In this document: positions 27,898 through 42,985 of the stretch, one piece after another
How positions within the stretch are numbered: position 1 is the stretch's first letter
How the letters are laid out: every line of letters begins with the position of its first letter
NCBI RefSeq assembly: GCF_004214835.1
Contig: NZ_PIQJ01000001.1
Span: 62,001 to 126,000, forward strand
Direction: 5' to 3'
Source of the DNA: Pseudidiomarina tainanensis
GTDB taxonomy: Bacteria > Pseudomonadota > Gammaproteobacteria > Enterobacterales > Alteromonadaceae
Length of the DNA: 64,000 nt
Notes under the pieces: generated by a model
Databases searched by the model: none
What the model was told of the DNA's origin: nothing
What the model saw: only the letters and a program-made list of their open reading frames with translations
Position numbers and translations under genes: made by a program

Positions 27898-29613
27898 GTG
27901 AGCGAGGCCAGTCAACATTCTCAAACGAGCGATAATGAATTTACGCCCATCAACAGTGTGGTTGAACTTGCGACGTATTACGATGCGTTGAGTCAACCAG
28001 GTGTTGCTGTGCTGACGTTGCTTGGGCCGGCCGAGAAAGATCATCCTGTTGTACTGGTTGAACAGCTTGAAGAAGACTACTTGTTATTCGATCTCACAGC
28101 GATTCGTGATGTCGCGCCACCGCTTCGGCGCGGCGGCAAGTTTATTCTGTCCGGATTTACCCCTGGCGGCTTAGTCCGCACCAACCCATTATCAGTTCGT
28201 GAATTTACTACCGTCGACAGTCGCTTGTTGGCGTATGCGGATTGGCCGACTGAAATTCATGTCAAACAGCGCCGCGCTAGTTTCCGTGCAAGCCTGCGCA
28301 TTGGCATGAACGTGGGTGTGCATGTTCGCAGCAAAGACAACGACAAAGAAGAATTGGTTGAACTGCAGGGCGATCTCAAAGATTTATCCGCGACCGGCTG
28401 CTTGGCTGAGTTTTTTATGCAAGATGGCGTATCGCGCGTACTACCGGATATTGCCACGGAAATTGAGTTGTATTTCCCCAATGGCACAAGCTTTGAGGTG
28501 AAAGCCAAAGTACGACATTTGAAAACGGATAACGATCGTCAAGTTTTAGCGGTTGGTTTTGAGTTTGAAAATGTTAGTAAGCCACAAGAGCGTGAAATTT
28601 GGGGGTATGTTCGCGAAATTGAGCGGGAAGCGTCGCGCAGTGCAGGTAATGGCGATAGCCGCAGCGAATCAGAGTTATTCCGTGTACGTGATGATAACGA
28701 CGTTAAGCTGAGTCGTCGCCACGCACATACTTATGCAACGCCGATGGCGCGCCGGATGGCTCGTATTGCCGGTTATCTTGACAGCCAGATGGTGATGCTT
28801 AAACAGGGTCAGCAAATCAATTCAGCACAACTATCGTTACATGCTGATCGTGTGCTTGATATGCTTGAGGACGATCGTCAAGAAGCGTTGTTCGCTGTGC
28901 ATTGTATTCAACGCGAGTCGCGCTGGGTCAAGCACGGTTTAGCGGTCGCGATACGTTTAGCGGATTTATTAAATGCCGCCAAAATGCCGCGCGATCTGCG
29001 TAAAGCAGTTGTCGCTGCGGCAATGGTTCATGACCTTGGTAAAGGGACGTTGCCGCCGGAAATTTGGAAAGCCACTACGTTAAGTACAGACGTTTATGAA
29101 GAGATGCAAAGTCATGTGGAGGTTATTCTCGAAAAGTTAGAGGGCGTTAAATGGCTGGCTCCGGTTGTGCGCGATAATGTGATTGCACAAATTAATGAAC
29201 GTATGGATGGTTCGGGCTATCCGAACGGCTTAAAGGACAAGCAGTTAGGGCAACTGGCACGCGCCGCTGCGGTGGTAGATGTTATCGATGCCATGCAACG
29301 CCATCGTCCAGATCGCCCAGCGATTTCTGCAATTGCCGCAACAAAATCCATGCAAACCCGAACTGAGCAATTCGATGAGGCCTGGGTGAAACGTTATCTG
29401 AGCCATTTTGGGCCGTTACCTATTGGCACTTTATTGCGCTTTGAAAAAGGCGCTTTTGCTTGGGTTGTTGGTCTAGATGAGAAAAAGCGCGTGAGCCGTG
29501 TTCGCGTGTCACCTCATAAGCTTGCCCCCGATGATAAGTTAGGTCCCCCCATAGAAGGCGCTGCGCTTAACGAGCTTGGCCGCATTCGCGATATTCTGGT
29601 GCCGGAAAGCTAG
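27898..29613 (+). CDS. YcgR-like PilZ domain protein fused to an HD-GYP domain
   Basis: 571 residues, GTG start with AAAGGAGC upstream. Residues about 15-115 resemble the YcgR N-terminal domain. A PilZ domain follows: QRRASFR near residue 123 (RxxxR type) and DLSATGC near 163 (D/NxSxxG type), the c-di-GMP binding signatures. From about 280 to 545 lies an HD-GYP domain with VHDLGKGTLP near 378 and RMDGSGYPNGL near 435. In active HD-GYP phosphodiesterases the GYP motif is preceded by HHE; here it is INE, so two metal-binding His are missing. It may sense c-di-GMP and either degrade it weakly or act only as a regulator of motility. Late expression follows from its promoter. Confidence 0.85.
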   Translation: MSEASQHSQTSDNEFTPINSVVELATYYDALSQPGVAVLTLLGPAEKDHPVVLVEQLEEDYLLFDLTAIRDVAPPLRRGGKFILSGFTPGGLVRTNPLSVREFTTVDSRLLAYADWPTEIHVKQRRASFRASLRIGMNVGVHVRSKDNDKEELVELQGDLKDLSATGCLAEFFMQDGVSRVLPDIATEIELYFPNGTSFEVKAKVRHLKTDNDRQVLAVGFEFENVSKPQEREIWGYVREIEREASRSAGNGDSRSESELFRVRDDNDVKLSRRHAHTYATPMARRMARIAGYLDSQMVMLKQGQQINSAQLSLHADRVLDMLEDDRQEALFAVHCIQRESRWVKHGLAVAIRLADLLNAAKMPRDLRKAVVAAAMVHDLGKGTLPPEIWKATTLSTDVYEEMQSHVEVILEKLEGVKWLAPVVRDNVIAQINERMDGSGYPNGLKDKQLGQLARAAAVVDVIDAMQRHRPDRPAISAIAATKSMQTRTEQFDEAWVKRYLSHFGPLPIGTLLRFEKGAFAWVVGLDEKKRVSRVRVSPHKLAPDDKLGPPIEGAALNELGRIRDILVPES

Positions 29614-33154: not shown

Positions 33155-33454
33155 ATGAGTCACAGCAAAACGATTTCTGAATTACAGGAACTCAATCTTA
33201 GTTACCTGATGTTAGTTCAGAAGTTAATTGTCGAAGATCGCGATACTGCAATTTTCCGATTAAAAATCGACGATGAATTAGCTGACCTTATTGTTGATAT
33301 GTCTGCGAAAGAATTAACCATGTTGGCCCGCCAACCTCAAAGTCTATTGCAACCTAATTTGGGTCCAGTAAGTCAGTTGAAAGCCATTCTGAAAAATAAG
33401 CGGGATACTGGCATGCAAGCAACCCATTTAGCAATGCATATGGCTTCTGCTTAA
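33155..33454 (+). CDS. flhD: FlhD, subunit of the flagellar master activator
   Basis: A 99-residue protein that matches FlhD along its length: ELQELNLSYLMLVQKLIVED followed by RDTAIFRLKIDDELADLIVD and SAKELTMLARQPQSLLQPNL. FlhD forms the FlhD4C2 complex that activates class II flagellar promoters. It is slightly shorter than the enterobacterial protein. A GGAGAAATGCGCTA ribosome region precedes the ATG. flhC follows after 18 bases. Confidence 0.95.
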   Translation: MSHSKTISELQELNLSYLMLVQKLIVEDRDTAIFRLKIDDELADLIVDMSAKELTMLARQPQSLLQPNLGPVSQLKAILKNKRDTGMQATHLAMHMASA

Positions 33455-33472: not shown

Positions 33473-34018
33473 ATGACCGCCAAGAAACTTCTTGAAGAAC
33501 TGAATCAGGTGCAGCTTGCAATTGAGCTTATCGAACTTGGTGCTCGATTGCAGGTTTTAGAATCTGAGGTAAGTTTAAACCGTGGCCGATTGGTTCGGTT
33601 GTATAAAGAAGTTTCAGGTAAGTCACCACCCAAAGGAATGCTGCCGTTTTCAACTGATTGGTTTATGACGTGGCAGCCGAATGTGCATTCATCGTTTTTT
33701 TACAACATCTACTCTCGTTTGCGCGAAGGTCAGAAGCTTGAACGCATGCAGGCGTTTATCAAAGCTTACAAACTGTACCAAGAGCATATTCAGTTAAGTG
33801 ACGAGGAGGAGGTTCTAGCTTTAACTAGAGCCTGGACATTAATCCGCTTTTTTGAGAGCGACATGTTCCAGTTGTCTAAATGTACTTGCTGTGGTTTGCA
33901 GTTCGTTAATCATGCTCATACACCAGACGCGGATTATGTATGTGGTGTATGCCAACCGCCATCGCGAGCCGGTAAACCACTCAAACAAAAAGTGGCAAAA
34001 TTGCGAAAAGATATTTAA
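33473..34018 (+). CDS. flhC: FlhC, subunit of the flagellar master activator
   Basis: A 181-residue protein with FlhC features: QLAIELIELGARLQVLESEV, LSRGRLVRLYKEV-like NRGRLVRLYKEVSGKSPPKG, LPFSTDWFMTWQPNVHSS, and the zinc-binding cysteines in CTCCG (near residue 137) and VCGVCQPP (near 160). It provides DNA binding in FlhD4C2. FlhDC is typical of enterobacteria and some Betaproteobacteria, and uncommon in polar-flagellated marine Gammaproteobacteria, where FlrA/FleQ is usual. No flrABC genes are in this window. Confidence 0.95.
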   Translation: MTAKKLLEELNQVQLAIELIELGARLQVLESEVSLNRGRLVRLYKEVSGKSPPKGMLPFSTDWFMTWQPNVHSSFFYNIYSRLREGQKLERMQAFIKAYKLYQEHIQLSDEEEVLALTRAWTLIRFFESDMFQLSKCTCCGLQFVNHAHTPDADYVCGVCQPPSRAGKPLKQKVAKLRKDI

Positions 34019-35943: not shown

Positions 35944-37086
35944 ATGGCAGAAGAACAAACAAATGACCAAGAAAAAACAGAAGACCCCACGGCCCGAAGG
36001 TTAGAAAAATCTCGGGAGGAAGGTCAGGTTGCGCGATCGCGCGAGCTGACCACGTTTGTGATCCTGTTTGGTGGTGTGTTAATGCTTTGGGCGCTAGGTA
36101 GCACCATGTACCATAACCTTGGCTTAGTGATGGAACAAGCCTTCTTGTTTGAACGGTTGCAGGTTTCTGAACCCGGCCCCATGTTGCAGAATGTGTTGGA
36201 GCTCGGTCAATCGGCACTGTTTTCGTTATTACCTTTATTCGCCGTCATGATGGTGCTGGCACTGGTTGCTCCGGCTTTACTAGGCGGTTGGGTGATATCC
36301 GCCAAAGCGATGGCTCCGAAGCTAAGCAAACTCAACCCGATTAAAGGCTTAAAGCGCGTATTTTCTACGCAGGCGTTGGCCGAACTTGGCAAAGCGATTG
36401 CAAAGTCGGTACTGGTCGGTAGCGTCCTGATGCTGTTTTTGTGGGATCAGAAAGCGAATTTTCTGCGACTAATGAGCCTCGAAGTCAAACAAGCACTAGG
36501 TGAAGCCATGAGCATGGCCGCATTAGCTTGTTTCTTGATGATTCTAACCTTGTTAGTCGTCGTTGCCTTTGACGTGCCATTTCAACTATTCACGCACACT
36601 AAAAAATTGCGCATGTCGAAAGAAGAAGTGAAGCGTGAGAACAAAGAAACCGAAGGTGACCCGCACGTCAAAGGGAAAATTCGGCAGCAGCAACAAGCCA
36701 TGGCGCGGCGTCGTATGATGACTGAAGTTCCTAAAGCAGATGTGATTGTGACGAACCCAACGCATTATGCGGTGGCATTGAAATACGATGATAGTAATAT
36801 GGGCGCCCCGCGCGTGGTGGCCAAAGGCACGGACTTGGTGGCGCAACGCATTCGCGAACTCGGTGATGAATACAAAGTGCCACGACTAGAAGCGCCACCG
36901 CTAGCTCGAGCATTACATACCCATGTTGATTTGGGACACGAGATTCCTGCGCCGTTGTATACGGCAGTGGCCGAAGTTTTGGCGTGGGCATTTCAGTTGA
37001 AGCGAGCGCGCAATGGCGCAGCTTTAATACCACCAACGCCAACCAGTATTTCAGTTCCTGACGATTACGAGGTACCTGCACCATGA
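35944..37086 (+). CDS. flhB: FlhB, export switch protein
   Basis: A 380-residue protein. The cytoplasmic start (KTEDPTARRLEKSREEGQVA) and SRELTTFVILFGGVL are FlhB signatures; four membrane segments follow. The autocleavage motif NPTHYAVALKYDD starts near residue 270. It forms part of the export gate and switches substrate class with FliK. It overlaps flhA by 4 bases and begins the flhB-flhA-flhF-FlhG-like-fliA run. Confidence 0.97.
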   Translation: MAEEQTNDQEKTEDPTARRLEKSREEGQVARSRELTTFVILFGGVLMLWALGSTMYHNLGLVMEQAFLFERLQVSEPGPMLQNVLELGQSALFSLLPLFAVMMVLALVAPALLGGWVISAKAMAPKLSKLNPIKGLKRVFSTQALAELGKAIAKSVLVGSVLMLFLWDQKANFLRLMSLEVKQALGEAMSMAALACFLMILTLLVVVAFDVPFQLFTHTKKLRMSKEEVKRENKETEGDPHVKGKIRQQQQAMARRRMMTEVPKADVIVTNPTHYAVALKYDDSNMGAPRVVAKGTDLVAQRIRELGDEYKVPRLEAPPLARALHTHVDLGHEIPAPLYTAVAEVLAWAFQLKRARNGAALIPPTPTSISVPDDYEVPAP

Positions 37087-39167
37087 AGTTAAGCATGAAC
37101 GCGCTAGCCGGGAGCTTAAGCTCAGCTCGCTTACAAGTGCTTGTAGGGCCAGTTCTTATTCTCATGATTCTGGCAATGATGGTATTGCCGTTGCCTCCAT
37201 TTGCACTCGATTTCCTATTTACCTTCAATATTGCACTGTCGTTAATGGTGTTGTTGGTAAGTATGTTTACCGAAAAACCATTAGAGTTCGCGGCGTTTCC
37301 AGCTGTGCTGTTGTTTTCCACGTTGCTCCGGCTATCGCTCAACGTGGCCTCAACTCGTGTCGTACTGATGGAAGGGCACAATGGCGGTGATGCCGCAGGC
37401 AAAGTGATTGAGGCGTTTGGCCAGTTTTTAGTGGGTGGGAATTTTGCCGTAGGTTTGGTCGTTTTCTTAATTCTCGTCATCATTAACTTTATGGTAATCA
37501 CTAAAGGCGCAGGGCGTATAGCCGAAGTGGGCGCTCGCTTCACTCTCGACGCAATGCCAGGTAAACAAATGGCAATTGACGCCGATTTGAATGCCGGACT
37601 GATTGGTGAAGAGGAAGCACGCCGGCGTCGTCAAGAAGTCGCACAAGAAGCAGAATTTTACGGCTCAATGGACGGTGCCAGTAAATTTGTTCGCGGTGAC
37701 GCCGTTGCAGGTATGATTATCATGGTGGTTAACATCATTGGCGGTCTCCTCATTGGTGTCATGCAGCACAATATGAGCGCCGGCGCCGCTGCTGAAACCT
37801 ACGTGCTGTTAACTATCGGTGATGGTTTGGTAGCACAGATTCCCGCCTTAATTATCTCCACTGCCGCTGGTGTCACGGTATCACGGGTGAATACCGACCA
37901 AGACGTTGGCCAGCAGTTAATCAAGCAACTATTTGTTAGCCCGAAAGTATTGATGTTGGCGGCCGGGGTCATCGGGATGTTGGGTTTAGTTCCGGGCATG
38001 CCTAATTTCGTATTTTTACTCTTCACCGCCATGCTCGGTGGTTTCGCTTGGTATTTGCATAAACAGCAAGCGGCTGAAAAAATTGCTGCGGTACAATCTG
38101 AGCAAGCCGCACCAACGCCTTCTTTTAGCGCACCTGAAGCAAGCTGGAATGACGTTCAACTGGTTGACACCTTGGGTATGGAAGTGGGACATCGATTAAT
38201 TGCCTTAGTTGATGACTCGCAACAAGGCGAGCTGCTTGGTCGCATCAAGAGTGTGCGCAAAAAATTTGCCCAAGAAGTTGGTTTTCTGCCGCCGGTGGTG
38301 CATATACGCGATAATCTCGAACTCAATCCGAATACTTATACCATCACCTTAAAAGGCGGTGAGATTGGACGGGCGGAGATTCACCCCGATCGCTGGTTAG
38401 CAATAAATCCAGGTCAGGTGAGTGGCGAGGTAGAAGGAATTGATACTACCGACCCAGCATTTGGTTTGCCGGCGAAATGGATTGGCCAGGATCAACGCGA
38501 GCATGCACAGATATACGGCTACACCGTTGTGGATGCCAGTACAGTGGTTGCCACGCATTTGAATCACTTGCTGCAACGCTATGCTTCTGACCTTCTAGGG
38601 CGCCAAGAAGTGCAACAATTGGTAGATAAACTATCCGAAGAAAACAAAGCGTTAGTTGAAGATGTCGTACCAAAATGTGTTACCGTGACCACCTTACAAC
38701 GGGTATTGCAAAACCTACTTGAAGAAGATGTATCCATTCGCGACTTACGAACTATTTTCGATACCTTGGCGGAATTCGAAGGGCAACAGGCCGATGCGCA
38801 TGAGTTGACGGCGCGAGTGCGAATTGCTTTGGGTCGCAACATTACCCAGAAATGGTTCGGTGGCGCGCGCGAATTGCAGGTTATTGGGTTAGATGTGTCA
38901 TTAGAAAATATGTTATCGCAAGCACTACAACAGAACAGTTCATTGGAACCTGGGTTGGCAGTAACCCTACAAGAGCAAACGCAGAAAGCTTTGCACCATG
39001 CCGAAACAATGGGATTAGCACCGGTACTTGTTGTTCCACATCAATTACGCCCATTGTTGTCGCATTTCTTACGCCGGCAGCTACGTGATTTGGTGGTATT
39101 ATCTCAGGCCGAGATTCCGGATGACCGAACCATTAAAGTTGTTAGCGTAATTGGAGGGTCACAATGA
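37083..39167 (+). CDS. flhA: FlhA, export gate protein
   Basis: A 694-residue protein with about eight membrane segments in the first 330 residues and a large cytoplasmic domain. Signatures: FPAVLLFSTLLRLSLNVAST, RIAEVGARFTLDAMPGKQMA and IDADLNAGLIGEEEARRRRQ, the FHIPEP motif. FlhA docks chaperone-substrate complexes and uses the proton gradient. It overlaps flhF by 4 bases. Confidence 0.97.
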   Translation: MKLSMNALAGSLSSARLQVLVGPVLILMILAMMVLPLPPFALDFLFTFNIALSLMVLLVSMFTEKPLEFAAFPAVLLFSTLLRLSLNVASTRVVLMEGHNGGDAAGKVIEAFGQFLVGGNFAVGLVVFLILVIINFMVITKGAGRIAEVGARFTLDAMPGKQMAIDADLNAGLIGEEEARRRRQEVAQEAEFYGSMDGASKFVRGDAVAGMIIMVVNIIGGLLIGVMQHNMSAGAAAETYVLLTIGDGLVAQIPALIISTAAGVTVSRVNTDQDVGQQLIKQLFVSPKVLMLAAGVIGMLGLVPGMPNFVFLLFTAMLGGFAWYLHKQQAAEKIAAVQSEQAAPTPSFSAPEASWNDVQLVDTLGMEVGHRLIALVDDSQQGELLGRIKSVRKKFAQEVGFLPPVVHIRDNLELNPNTYTITLKGGEIGRAEIHPDRWLAINPGQVSGEVEGIDTTDPAFGLPAKWIGQDQREHAQIYGYTVVDASTVVATHLNHLLQRYASDLLGRQEVQQLVDKLSEENKALVEDVVPKCVTVTTLQRVLQNLLEEDVSIRDLRTIFDTLAEFEGQQADAHELTARVRIALGRNITQKWFGGARELQVIGLDVSLENMLSQALQQNSSLEPGLAVTLQEQTQKALHHAETMGLAPVLVVPHQLRPLLSHFLRRQLRDLVVLSQAEIPDDRTIKVVSVIGGSQ

Positions 39168-41272
39168 CCATTAGGCGCTTCCGAGCAGCCAGCCACAAAG
39201 ACGCGATGCGCAAAGTGCGTGATGCACTCGGCGAAGATGCGGTGATTGTGTCCTCGCGTAAGACAGCGCAAGGTGCTGAAGTATTCGCCATTAGTGAAGC
39301 TGATTTAGCACAATCGCAAGATGCTGATGAGGTACCAAGCCCTGCATCGCCGGATTTTTCTGGTATTGCTCAGCAATTGTTAAGCGATATGCAGGACATG
39401 CGTGCCATGCTACATCAACAGCAAGGTGAGAAGGCGCCTGATGATAATCGTAAGCGGTTATATCGTCAGTTACGCGCTGGAGGCTATAGCGATGCCTTAA
39501 GTCGTCAGTTGGTAGCGTTGTTGCCCTCTGCATTGAATCACTCTAATAAGACCTATCCGGAAGCGCTTAAGTGGTTACAGCAGCAGATTGTTGCGCGTAT
39601 TTCTCATCAATCTGAGATGCGTGTGAATGATTGGGAATTGCTACAACATCAAGGCGTGATGGCGTTTGTTGGACCAACTGGGGTAGGCAAAACGACCACG
39701 ACTGCTAAGCTTGCAGCTAATTATGTGATGCAACATGGCAACGACAGTTTGCTGTTAGTGACAACCGATAGCTATCGAATTGGTGCGCAGCAGCAGCTAG
39801 CGATATATGCCGAACTGCTCGACGTACAAATGCACGCATTAGCTGATGGTGACACTCTCGATTCGTTAGCGGAAAAGATGCACGGTAAACGTTTGGTGTT
39901 GGTGGACACTGTTGGCATGAGCCAACGTGATCAACGCTTGGCGCAAAAAATCGCTGCATTAGGTAGCGCGGAGCATCGCGATTCAACTCGTTTGGTGCTG
40001 TTATTAAACGCTGCCGCGCAACAAGAAACGCTGGATGAAGTCGCTCGGATTTATCAGCGTATTGCGCGCGAAAGCGACTTAATTATTCACGACTGCATTT
40101 TAACTAAGTTAGATGAAACCGCTCGTATGGGTGGTGTGTTGGACACCGTTATTCGTCATAAATTGACGGTGCAAGCAACGGCGTCGGGGCAGCGTGTACC
40201 AGAAGACATCCGCGTGCCGGATATTGAGCAATTGGTGGCCGATTCGTTAACGGCTGAGGTGAGTTCGTCGCAGTTAGCTGAAAGTGAATGGGAGCAAGCG
40301 AGCGAGAAGCTTGAGCCCTCGCAGGTATTTGCTCATGGTCACCTGATTCAGTCTAACATGCAGGCCTTACGGCAACAGATTCCACACTTTGATGAGCTTG
40401 TGCAGGCGCTAAAACTCAAGCAGTTGCCGGATCATTGGGCGAATACTGCGTTTCCAGATGAGCTGAATATGATTCGCTGGGCGGCACCGCAACCATTGCA
40501 GGGATGGAGTCATTTAACGCCCCATTTGGGTTTGAATAAGCGAGGTTTGCCCTTATTACCACCCGTTTTACACAGCGCTGAGAATCCAGTGCTGGTAGAT
40601 ATGGCGTTAGCACCTGTGCAGTTATTCGATTATTTACCCCAACCTGAGCTACTGGATATTTTTTCTCAGCACCAAACCGGTTGGTTAGCCACACTGAACC
40701 TGAATCATAAAGTGCAATTTCAAGGGCAACCGTTCACGGTAAATGGCCTTGTCAAAAAGCATGGTATTCCGCTAAGTAAACACACCATTTTATACCGTGG
40801 CGAGCGGCGACGTCTTGAACTCACTATTGCGGCGGCTGAAACCGAGCCAAGCCAGCAGTTAGTGCAAGTCATATACGGCGAACTCCATGGCGGACCGAGT
40901 AAAAATCCAGTGCAGCGACGCTATTGGTTAGCCGACGGTAATTGTACCGCTGAACAAGTGGTTGAACGTACGCGCGCCATGTTGCAATTGGAAGAATTTG
41001 CGCGATTGACACGACTCGCTTGGCGGTCACTGGGCAAGTATGAATTAGACAGCCGTACTCAGTTAGGCCTAGCCGGGGCGTTGGCTGCTGTTGCGCTACA
41101 TGTTGAGTATCACGCTGCGGCTCAATTTGCCGGGCTCAGAGGTGAACTGTTGAGTATTAGTGGTAAACGCGGTCGCGTTCAAGGTGATAAGTTATTGCCG
41201 GCGATTTTGCATGTAATACATGCCTATGATTCCTTAGTAGTAGCAGGCCGAGAAGTAGAGGCACAAGGGTAG
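39164..41272 (+). CDS. flhF: FlhF GTPase with a long unrecognised C-terminal extension
   Basis: 702 residues, against roughly 400-500 in most FlhF. Residues 1-365 are a normal SRP-type FlhF: RRFRAASHKDAMRKVRDALG (B domain), P-loop GPTGVGKTTTTAKLA near 169, TTDSYRIGAQQQL, DTVGMSQRD (G3), TKLDE near 314 (G4) and ASGQRVPEDI near 340 (G5). The remaining ~335 residues are in frame and at similar codon use, with soluble patterns such as HQTGWLATLNLNHKVQFQGQ and LAWRSLGKYELDSRTQLGL; I do not recognise a domain. FlhF sets flagellar position and number at the pole in many bacteria. The stop is followed after 1 base by the FlhG-like gene. Confidence 0.92.
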   Translation: MTIRRFRAASHKDAMRKVRDALGEDAVIVSSRKTAQGAEVFAISEADLAQSQDADEVPSPASPDFSGIAQQLLSDMQDMRAMLHQQQGEKAPDDNRKRLYRQLRAGGYSDALSRQLVALLPSALNHSNKTYPEALKWLQQQIVARISHQSEMRVNDWELLQHQGVMAFVGPTGVGKTTTTAKLAANYVMQHGNDSLLLVTTDSYRIGAQQQLAIYAELLDVQMHALADGDTLDSLAEKMHGKRLVLVDTVGMSQRDQRLAQKIAALGSAEHRDSTRLVLLLNAAAQQETLDEVARIYQRIARESDLIIHDCILTKLDETARMGGVLDTVIRHKLTVQATASGQRVPEDIRVPDIEQLVADSLTAEVSSSQLAESEWEQASEKLEPSQVFAHGHLIQSNMQALRQQIPHFDELVQALKLKQLPDHWANTAFPDELNMIRWAAPQPLQGWSHLTPHLGLNKRGLPLLPPVLHSAENPVLVDMALAPVQLFDYLPQPELLDIFSQHQTGWLATLNLNHKVQFQGQPFTVNGLVKKHGIPLSKHTILYRGERRRLELTIAAAETEPSQQLVQVIYGELHGGPSKNPVQRRYWLADGNCTAEQVVERTRAMLQLEEFARLTRLAWRSLGKYELDSRTQLGLAGALAAVALHVEYHAAAQFAGLRGELLSISGKRGRVQGDKLLPAILHVIHAYDSLVVAGREVEAQG

Positions 41273-41273
41273 T

Positions 41274-41765
41274 ATGAGCGATCAGGCAGCGAGTTTGCGG
41301 CAGTGGGCCGCCAAACGTGATGGCGATGATTCAGCCGCTGAAGCGTGTTCAGAGGTGGTTTCTGCAGATAATGCGTCGCGCAATCTCGAGCAGGTGGTTG
41401 TATTGGGATTACCGAAGTTTAGCGACGGCTATGCGTTGAAAGCAGCTGCAGTTTTTCAGCGCTGGGAAGAACAGGGCATGAAGTGGGTTGGTAGCGCCGA
41501 TCGATGGCGTGTCATTCCAGTATCGCTTGAATACCCAGATTTTGATAAATTGGTGGGCAATTATCCTCGCTGGGCGGTTTGGGTTGAGGATGATTTAGAT
41601 AGTTTTGCTCGAGTGTATCGAGTACTCAAACGCATTCATGAGGTAGATGGTCCGCGGCGTATTGTCGCATTGCACCCACCGATGGCACGACAAGGGTTGC
41701 TCGCCAACATACAAATGGTTGCGCGCCAGTATTTTAACATTGACGTATTGGTATTTTCGGGCTGA
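41274..41765 (+). CDS. Small FlhG-like protein with FlhF-activating DQAxxLR helix but no ATPase P-loop
   Basis: A 163-residue protein in the slot normally held by FlhG/FleN. It opens MSDQAASLRQWAAKR; DQAxxLR is the N-terminal helix by which FlhG stimulates FlhF GTPase. There is no KGGxGK-type deviant Walker A or MinD switch motif. The last ~60 residues (DLDSFARVYRVLKRIHEVDG, then RIVALHPP and ARQYFNIDVLVFSG) recall, by eye, the C-terminal part of FleN (DAYAxIKxL..., RFLDVxLxYxG). It may be an FlhG that lost its ATPase core, or a convergent FlhF partner. It could not dimerise on membranes like a MinD-type ATPase, and the FleQ-inhibiting role would not be needed with FlhDC. Confidence 0.7.
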   Translation: MSDQAASLRQWAAKRDGDDSAAEACSEVVSADNASRNLEQVVVLGLPKFSDGYALKAAAVFQRWEEQGMKWVGSADRWRVIPVSLEYPDFDKLVGNYPRWAVWVEDDLDSFARVYRVLKRIHEVDGPRRIVALHPPMARQGLLANIQMVARQYFNIDVLVFSG

Positions 41766-41770
41766 AAAAT

Positions 41771-42469
41771 ATGTATACAGCTGAAGGAAAGTTCAACAAG
41801 CACAGTATTATCGAACAGTACTATCCACTCGTTCGTCGTCAAGCATTTAACTTGAAAGTTAAGCTGCCGGCCGGCGTTGACGTGGATGATCTGATTCAAG
41901 CTGGCGTTGAAGGCTTATTAAGCTGTGTTGACCGCTTTGACCCAGATTCAGGAGTCGCTTTTTCAACTTATGCGCATCAGCGTATTCGCGGCGCGATGAT
42001 TGATGAGTTACGTAGCCGAGATTGGCTACCGCGCAGCGTACGTCGCAATGGGCGTGAGCTTGAGCAAACCATTCGCAAACTAGAACAGCGTCTAGGGCGG
42101 CCGCCCGAAGAGCGTGAAATTGCAACTGAGCTCAATATTGAACTGGCGGAATACCATCAACTGCTGTTAGATACCAATAATGGCTTGGTTTTATCCTACG
42201 ACGAAGTGGTTGCTGAAACTCCAGGCAACGAAACCAATGATGAAGAAGCCGAGCCGGAAGCACAAATTGGCAATGCACAACTAAAACAGCTATTAGTAGA
42301 AGCACTTGATATGTTGCCTGAGCGTGAAAAATTAGTCATGACGCTCTATTATCAAGAAGAGCTTAACCTCAAAGAGATTGGCGCAGTACTCGATGTTACC
42401 GAATCGCGTGTATCACAGTTACATAGCCAAGCGATCAAGCGAATTCGTTCACGGGTTGCCACCGACTAA
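41771..42469 (+). CDS. fliA: FliA, flagellar sigma factor 28
   Basis: A 232-residue sigma factor. Region 2: YYPLVRRQAFNLKVKLPAGV and DDLIQAGVEGLLSCVDRFDP, FSTYAHQRIRGAMIDELRSR, DWLPRSVRR. Region 4: MLPEREKLVMTLYYQEELNL and KEIGAVLDVTESRVSQLHSQ. It directs RNA polymerase to the seven late promoters identified in this cluster and is held by FlgM. It lies at the end of the flhB operon, 5 bases after the FlhG-like gene. Confidence 0.97.
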   Translation: MYTAEGKFNKHSIIEQYYPLVRRQAFNLKVKLPAGVDVDDLIQAGVEGLLSCVDRFDPDSGVAFSTYAHQRIRGAMIDELRSRDWLPRSVRRNGRELEQTIRKLEQRLGRPPEEREIATELNIELAEYHQLLLDTNNGLVLSYDEVVAETPGNETNDEEAEPEAQIGNAQLKQLLVEALDMLPEREKLVMTLYYQEELNLKEIGAVLDVTESRVSQLHSQAIKRIRSRVATD

Positions 42470-42505
42470 CCCAAATAACGTACTCAAAGTACAAGTAGGT
42501 GCTTG

Positions 42506-42985
42506 ATGAACAATTATAAATTAGAAATTCGTTGGGGCTTTATTTTTAGCGTGGCGATGCTGCTCTGGTTGTTATTAGAGCGTTTAGTGGGATTGCATAG
42601 TACGTATATAGCGCAACATATGATGTGGACCAATTTGTTCGCCATAGTAGCTATTGCGATTTACGTGTTTGCGCTTCGTCAGAAAAAAATACACGAACTG
42701 AATGGTCGCATGACTTGGAAGCAGGGCTTTATGTGTGGCGTAGGGGTGACTGTTGTCGTTGCCATTTTGTCACCGCTTACCCAATGGCTTGCGCATACCT
42801 TCGTGTCCCCTCACTTTTTCACCAATATGGTTGAGTATGCCGTAAGTAGCGGCAATATGACCGAAGCTCAAGCTGTGGTCTATTTTTCGTTACAAAGCTA
42901 CATGGTTCAAGCGGTTATAGGCGCTGTTGCAATGGGGGTGATTACCTCAGCGGTGGTGGCCTTATTTGTGCGTAACGCCAAATAA
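42506..42985 (+). CDS. DUF4199-like membrane protein
   Basis: About 159 residues from ATG 42506. Four hydrophobic segments are visible (roughly residues 10-30, 40-57, 75-95 and 135-155). The layout, with GRMTWKQGFMCGVGVTVVVA and YFSLQSYMVQAVIGAVAMGV, is like the DUF4199 family of inner-membrane proteins. The function is unknown. It follows fliA by 36 bases with a weak TAGGTG ribosome site; whether it belongs to the flagellar transcript is uncertain, and no sigma-28 motif was seen. Confidence 0.7.
   Translation: MNNYKLEIRWGFIFSVAMLLWLLLERLVGLHSTYIAQHMMWTNLFAIVAIAIYVFALRQKKIHELNGRMTWKQGFMCGVGVTVVVAILSPLTQWLAHTFVSPHFFTNMVEYAVSSGNMTEAQAVVYFSLQSYMVQAVIGAVAMGVITSAVVALFVRNAK

Follow-up and report, generated by a model that had tools for sequence, protein, structure and literature searches.

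A short FlhG-like protein without a P-loop, encoded between flhF and fliA in Pseudidiomarina tainanensis

In the flagellar gene cluster of Pseudidiomarina tainanensis, the gene directly after flhF encodes a protein of only 163 residues, which raises the question of what this protein is and what it might do for FlhF. Descriptions of FlhG present it as an ATPase in which the ATP cycle and the helix that activates FlhF are parts of one switch: this helix, with the motif DQAxxLR, stimulates the GTPase of the FlhF homodimer via its glutamine and thereby converts active dimers into monomers, and dimers of FlhG form on ATP and bind the membrane through a C-terminal sequence (PMC12826062). The window, i.e., the whole stretch of DNA analyzed here, comprises 64,000 nucleotides, and all coordinates refer to it.

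The gene, its neighbors and its constrained helix

The open reading frame at 41274..41765 (+ strand) starts with ATG and, as judged from its sequence and from profile comparison, encodes a minimal homologue of FlhG without a P-loop. The N terminus of the product is MSDQAASLRQWAAKR, with MSDQAASLR as the opening residues. A single base separates the start codon from the stop codon of flhF (39164..41272, +; TIGR03499, E 4.7e-61), which encodes a long form of 702 aa, and five bases separate the stop codon from fliA, the gene for sigma-28 (41771..42469, +; PRK06986, E 1.8e-92). Further upstream are flhD (33155..33454, +) and flhC (33473..34018, +), followed by genes at 35944..37086 (+) and 37083..39167 (+), which are recognized as flhB and flhA, respectively, from their sequences alone. 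The first-pass annotation had described a product of 163 residues that starts with DQAASLR, lacks a P-loop and is encoded after flhF in a cluster containing FlhDC. The features of the protein and its position were all found as described, and the identities of FlhD and FlhC were borne out by Pfam (E 4.7e-22 and 6.5e-81, respectively).

The motif KGGxGK[ST] occurs neither in the minimal protein nor in any of the six reading frames of its locus. At E ≤ 1, the protein was not matched by any Pfam or NCBIfam model, searches of Pfam, NCBIfam and PDB sequences with the protein or its profile yielded nothing useful, and there were no matches in the plasmid collection. For comparison, the full-length FlhG of a genus-mate matches the Pfam families ParA, AAA_31 and CbiA.

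Two other genes in the window may be mentioned. Downstream of fliA lies a gene for a DUF4199 membrane protein (42503-42985, +; Pfam E 4.9e-26), which is not obviously flagellar; similar open reading frames, recognized by eye, also follow fliA in several members of the genus. Within the flagellar cluster, immediately upstream of fliD, a protein with PilZ and HD domains, of the c-di-GMP type, is encoded at 27898-29613 (+).

In a search of 59 relatives, 15 of the 26 genomes that belong to the genus, including that of the window, were found to carry the minimal gene, without internal stop codons and always between flhF and fliA. FlhF scored above the model cut-off in 16 of these 26 genomes, and 15 of those 16 carry the minimal protein, which is found only with the long FlhF (15/15). 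The sixteenth, G020, encodes a shorter FlhF and a 292-aa FlhG with the sequence GGKGGVGKT. Named carriers are Pseudidiomarina, Idiomarina loihiensis SN11, Aliidiomarina, Halomonas, Onishia and Litchfieldella, and also, at low similarity (E 2e-5 and 2e-4), Chromohalobacter. A match in a genome of another genus (G030; E 0.0056, with a stop codon inside) was attributed to chance.

A full-length FlhG elsewhere in the genome, which the first-pass annotation had named as a finding that would refute its interpretation, was not found. With the FlhG of G020 as the query, only two weak matches were obtained in the genome of the window, a 271-residue frame (E 2.4e-10) and a 354-residue frame (E 1.3e-9), whereas the true FlhG group in other genomes matched at E 8.0e-188 to 1.2e-102. 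From their sizes, the two frames look like ParA and Mrp.

The minimal protein is also found in the family of G421, which was assigned to the Halomonadaceae because 60-residue segments of proteins from named Litchfieldella, Onishia and Chromohalobacter records are found again in its loci. FlhF is present in 48 of the 61 genomes of this family, as a long frame of 722-874 aa in 38 and as a short one of 425-477 aa in 10. A DQAxxLR protein without P-loop is encoded in 35 of the 38 with the long frame: in 29 genomes, the protein is recognized by the minimal-protein profile and always contains DQAxxLR, and six of the remaining nine encode a diverged protein of 135-168 aa in which the motif is retained. 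The last three (L122, L123 and L124, all of one genus) have no minimal FlhG after flhF. KGGxGK[ST] was not found in any of the six frames at any of the 50 loci with a minimal FlhG, i.e., 15 from the genus and 29 plus six from the Halomonadaceae.

At L122, L123 and L124, a gene resembling flhE, as judged by eye, directly follows the gene for the long FlhF. At seven other loci of this family (L128-L134, from G477, G428, G465, G451, G447, G445 and G426, respectively), an FlhF of ordinary length (frames of 425-477 aa) is directly followed by fliA. Thus, no flhG lies between flhF and fliA in any of the seven short-FlhF loci inspected; these represent seven of the ten genomes concerned, and only the flhF locus was considered.

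The N-terminal helix of the enhancer type, predicted from sequence at residues 2-13 (41277..41312, +), contains DQAASLR at residues 3-9 (41280-41300, +) and is under the strongest purifying selection. All 15 members of the genus start with M[ST]DQA[AE][SG]LR, with the start codon as chosen for the alignment, even though identity to the window protein is as low as 37%, and the D, Q, A, L and R of the motif are invariant across 21 diverse members. In 55 pairwise comparisons of 11 sequences from the genus, pN/pS was 0.13 for residues 2-13, 0.76 for the linker and 0.43 for the domain that follows it. Synonymous change in codons 2-13 is near saturation in these 11 sequences (pS 0.78), against a pN of only 0.10. 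Since the start is kept in all 15 members at identities down to 37% and pN is so low relative to pS, conservation of the motif is beyond chance. Thus, the helix is the most tightly constrained segment of the minimal protein, and homologues do keep DQAxxLR, as the first-pass annotation had proposed to check, both in the genus (15/15) and in Halomonadaceae genomes with a long FlhF (35/38). In the AlphaFold2 model, residues 4-13 form a helix, but with pLDDT under 50, and the chain is disordered up to residue 36.

The rapid divergence of the linker (pN/pS 0.76) and the small size of the most reduced relatives (135-168 aa) might be taken as signs of a decaying pseudogene or of an overcalled open reading frame. 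However, the frame is open without stop codons in 15 of 15 members of the genus, is under purifying selection and occurs in other families as well, and this explanation is hardly credible.

Relationship to FlhG

Residues 39-163 (41388..41762, +) form an α/β domain with five strands in an AlphaFold2 model built from 15 sequences (pLDDT 86-96 by blocks, residues 41-160). The top Foldseek match of this model was FleN (5j1j_B; E 6e-3, probability 0.99), and FlhG occupied ranks 8 and 9; next to FleN, the list included unrelated chains, e.g., MilB, and none of the matches reached E ≤ 1e-3. With VIA, FlhG was at the top (4rz3_A; Z 8.2, 120 residues, 3.3 Å), and chains of EF-Tu scored up to Z 8.0. The fold alone is indecisive, since EF-Tu scores nearly as high, unrelated chains are interspersed and these scores are in the range of common arrangements.

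In profile comparisons, FlhG of the Burkholderiales served as an intermediate. The profile of the minimal protein (21 sequences), from which the first 14 residues had been removed, matched the Burkholderiales profile (77 sequences) with E 4e-8 and a probability of 95% over 98 columns, and the latter matched the profile of canonical FlhG (32 sequences) with E 1e-66 over 277 columns. Direct comparison of the minimal profile with canonical FlhG was not significant (probabilities of 4%, 2%, 5% and 6%); without the helix, it gave E 0.006 with a probability of 6%, and the direct score of 26.1 barely exceeds that of the best ordinary shuffle (24.9). The negative controls, i.e., the NG domain of FlhF, FliA and the FlhF extension discussed below, gave E 0.1-0.6, and a reversed profile gave E 0.04. 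When columns were shuffled, 98 of 100 shuffles scored at most 21.3 against the Burkholderiales profile, as compared to 56.6 for the real profile. The other two (seeds 32 and 52) reached scores of ~131 with the Burkholderiales and ~133 with the canonical profile; their alignments covered only 4-33 columns, and they are taken as artefacts of shuffled gap columns.

The region aligned to FlhG comprises the Walker-B strand, the next strand, a helix with DAYALIK, another strand and the following helix. According to the profile alignment, the domain retains the later half of the MinD-type core, without the P-loop and without the C-terminal membrane-targeting region. The first-pass annotation had likened the last 60 residues to the C-terminal end of FlhG. 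This has to be corrected: the final ~60 residues correspond to approximately residues 150-216 of about 290, and the last ~70 residues of FlhG, including the membrane-targeting sequence, are missing in the alignments. The same annotation had inferred descent from FlhG and suggested a profile search against it. Descent is supported through the Burkholderiales intermediates, as inferred from the two successive profile matches, but the direct comparison did not reach significance.

This lack of a significant direct match leaves some room for the explanation that an unrelated small protein acquired DQAxxLR by convergence or by fusion to the first codons of flhG. However, the match to the Burkholderiales profile was obtained without the helix and at an E-value far below those of the controls (4e-8 vs. 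0.04-0.6), FlhG or FleN tops both fold lists, the location of the gene between flhF and fliA is the same, and graded intermediates exist. Hence, an unrelated origin is very unlikely, and descent from FlhG remains the preferred reading.

The order to which G165 belongs was taken as the Burkholderiales because the FlhF of Burkholderia glumae can be aligned in full, at 62% identity, to one of the loci concerned. FlhF was found in 82 of the 120 genomes of this order, and 81 flhF loci were examined, including L116 and L118; G572, in which FlhF lies at contig ends, was left out. The gene after flhF contains DQAxxLR at 77 of the 81 loci and the variant HQASGLQ at one, and at three no such motif was recognized. 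KGGxGK[ST] was not found in six frames at any of the 81 loci. The shorter motif GxGK[ST] is kept at 13, no Walker lysine is present at 65 and three were left unscored; at L198, no FlhG was recognized. Among named strains, GGPVGVGCTS replaces the P-loop in the annotated FlhG of B. glumae BGR1 (L257), and FlhG of Cupriavidus metallidurans CH34 (L256) contains SDQAESLRR and no Walker lysine. As a rule, the Burkholderiales FlhG proteins examined lack the canonical P-loop; its loss is not unique to the window protein, and the finding is broader than the first-pass annotation had assumed. When FlhG of L116 was used as the query against the 120 genomes, only the protein itself and one weak match were found; these proteins diverge fast, and the neighbors of flhF were surveyed instead.

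In 40 control loci from the class of the window, KGGxGK[ST] was always present, and the strict DQAxxLR motif was found in 30, a near variant in three and a degenerate motif or none in seven. These loci were picked by hand among the matches listed, with a bias towards high-scoring FlhF. The controls without DQAxxLR show QMSGLR, GQAAGLE, SQGAGIQ, VQTSGLK, DQADGAR or nothing similar. The helix is retained without the P-loop in the Burkholderiales and minimal proteins, whereas ten of the 40 controls, all with a P-loop, have altered or lost the strict motif; hence, P-loop and helix come apart in both directions. Motif columns ranked at the top of the conservation analysis, but the rows (77 Burkholderiales and 32 control sequences) had been selected by the presence of the motif or of a close variant, which biases this rank; the unselected counts are 77/81 and 30/40. 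At two Burkholderiales loci, L210 and L211, the gene after flhF lacks both P-loop and DQAxxLR (LHQGMAL and LHQGLGL, respectively). Conversely, the control loci L227, L234, L239, L249, L251, L252 and L253 have the P-loop without DQAxxLR, i.e., the mirror image of the minimal protein. Since L122-L124 lack the minimal gene and L210 and L211 lack the motif, the helix is not indispensable everywhere.

At one Burkholderiales locus, FlhG is reduced in a manner similar to the window protein. At L207 (genome G502), 106 residues are encoded from DQA on, and the helix DQAEGLRRLL is connected to the later region of the core. Its domain matched the FlhG profile, which does not include L207, with E 4.5e-16 and the minimal profile with E 5.6e-5. 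This reduction looks independent, since its FlhF is placed among those of the Burkholderiales in an FlhF tree. This tree was made by a quick method from 74 chosen rows and contains many weak forks. All 18 canonical rows, including G020, form a clade (support 99) together with five short FlhF proteins of the Halomonadaceae, and the FlhF proteins of genomes with a minimal FlhG fall outside it. On the 64 rows that could be scored, the state of the Walker lysine changed at least six times.

A possible link with regulation by FlhDC was noted. In B. glumae BGR1, flhBAFG-fliA are co-transcribed and flhF is FlhDC dependent (PMC3885665). Seven genomes of the class sample gave a strong match to FlhC (E below 1e-79), and six of them have FlhF. 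None of these six has KGGxGK[ST] after flhF, and one of them, G379 (L118), keeps GxGK[ST]. Among the 40 control genomes, none has a strong FlhC match, and weak ones occur in G180, G299 and G304 (E 3e-19 to 4e-15). The FlhC search was limited to the class sample and did not cover the other Burkholderiales genomes.

The partner FlhF and a proposed mechanism

In FlhF, the SRP-GTPase motifs are intact, with the P-loop, DTxGxSQRD, KxDE and GQxVPED invariant among 14 sequences. Its extra length resides in a C-terminal extension of 319 aa (40313..41269, +), for which AlphaFold2 predicts a fold like that of Tn5 transposase (pLDDT 90.4). In Foldseek, the model matched only entries of Tn5 transposase or its inhibitor at E ≤ 1e-3 (best 3.3e-7). 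VIA aligned it to the Tn5 inhibitor 1b7e over 275 residues (Z 15.0, 4.9 Å); six Tn5 entries scored Z 11.8-15.0, and the next chain, piggyBat transposase, Z 6.3. No Tn5 similarity is detectable at the sequence level, with no PDB sequence match and no match to a Pfam transposase family, and hhalign of the extension to a Tn5 segment gave E 0.36. No aspartate or glutamate is invariant or nearly so in 13 sequences; in 26 rows, five columns contain D or E in 62-73%, and these were not mapped to catalytic sites. Given the lack of invariant acidic residues and of sequence similarity to Tn5, the extension, as modeled, is probably a dead and very old relative.

With the profile of the extension, matches were also obtained at two Burkholderiales loci, L193 (60 bits) and, at a weak level, L198 (25 bits), and, very weakly, in Cupriavidus (13 and 15 bits). 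Some 811 residues of FlhF of Cupriavidus, including the tail, can be aligned with FlhF of L193 at 37-39% identity. The extension is common to the long FlhF proteins of the Halomonadaceae and L193 and probably also to FlhF of Cupriavidus. The FlhG proteins of L193 and Cupriavidus are still 260-274 residues long. Matches of the extension search in G243, G264, G279 and G306 (E 5e-4 to 9e-4) were put down to chance.

We consider it likely that the minimal protein is a reduced descendant of FlhG that acts as a constitutive, ATP-independent activator of the FlhF GTPase, where both the contact with FlhF and the stimulation are inferred. In the proposed mechanism, the DQAxxLR helix would be tethered by a disordered linker to a remnant of the MinD-type core, from the Walker-B strand onward. 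Because the P-loop and the C-terminal membrane-targeting region are missing, no ATP binding, ATP-driven dimerization or membrane cycling would be expected, the absence of ATP binding being itself an inference. The protein would then be permanently available as a GTPase-activating partner that returns FlhF dimers to monomers, and its dose would be set by the position of its gene directly after flhF. The remaining domain would probably position the helix or bind a second partner.

The domain also points to another explanation, in which the helix does bind FlhF and the protein is a structural subunit, an assembly factor or a competitive inhibitor and not a GTPase activator, perhaps acting through the Tn5-like tail of FlhF. 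Tyr115 is invariant and Lys119 nearly so in the 15 members of the genus, and they apparently correspond to Tyr168 and Lys172, which are invariant in canonical FlhG. Tyrosine with lysine or arginine is present in 21 of 27 Halomonadaceae minimal proteins inspected, and L207 has DAYARIK. This helix with a tyrosine-x-x-hydrophobic-lysine pattern, common to minimal and canonical proteins, suggests a second interface; in addition, the domain is itself under purifying selection (pN/pS 0.43) and, within the genus, the minimal protein is confined to genomes with a long FlhF (15/15). Probably, the kept domain has its own partner, although this has not been shown biochemically. However, the glutamine of DQA is invariant in the 21 diverse members, as expected for the reported co-catalytic role, and the catalytic motifs of FlhF are intact. 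On balance, a purely structural or inhibitory role appears rather unlikely, and the constitutive activator remains the favored interpretation.

Comparison with known systems

Loss of the ATP machinery extends more widely across related flagellar systems, and the minimal FlhG represents one of its end points. Beyond this, we tentatively suggest a broader scenario, which we are slightly more inclined to doubt than to accept, that clusters of the FlhDC type have rebuilt the FlhF/FlhG switch: FlhG would have lost ATP control more than once and be left with a relic domain that carries a constitutively activating helix, and FlhF of the Idiomarina/Halomonadaceae branch, as well as of some Burkholderiales (L193 and Cupriavidus), would have gained an apparently dead Tn5-like domain that may have taken over dimerization, localization or partner binding. 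If true, the rebuilt switch would be intermediate between the complete FlhF/FlhG switch and the FlhDC systems of enterobacteria, in which both proteins are missing. A flagellar operon of betaproteobacterial origin appears to have been adopted by the enterobacteria, which ended up without flhF and flhG (PMC12826062). Genomes like that of the window show possible reduced forms of this gene pair.

The natural separation of helix and P-loop provides material for testing the role of each half of FlhG, and the minimal protein is a candidate ATP-independent activator of FlhF, with stimulation being inferred, whose small size suits it to structural studies. The fusion of a transposase-like domain to a flagellar GTPase would also mean that a mobile-element fold has been reused in an unusual way. 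In the open part of PubMed Central, which leaves most subscription journals uncovered, neither an FlhG without P-loop nor a fusion of FlhF to a transposase was found in titles and the beginnings of abstracts.

MinD-type proteins in which the use of ATP is lost or altered are known, such as TadZ and other relatives of MinD and ParA. These function in a different pathway and are not known to contain the DQAxxLR helix. With FlhG, FleN and YlxH, the minimal protein shares the N-terminal DQAxxLR helix, the position between flhF and fliA and the later half of the MinD-type core, but it differs from them in lacking the P-loop and the C-terminal membrane-targeting region, in being about half as long and in being encoded in a cluster with flhDC. 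Closer are the FlhG proteins of the Burkholderiales, such as those of B. glumae BGR1 and C. metallidurans CH34, in which DQAxxLR is likewise kept, the canonical P-loop is likewise lost and the gene order is also flhF-flhG-fliA, although these proteins are still 270-274 aa long. The minimal FlhG of L207 resembles the window protein in that its helix is attached to the later core region; however, its FlhF (a 590-residue frame) shows no match to the profile of the Tn5-like extension, which sets it apart from the pair encoded in P. tainanensis.
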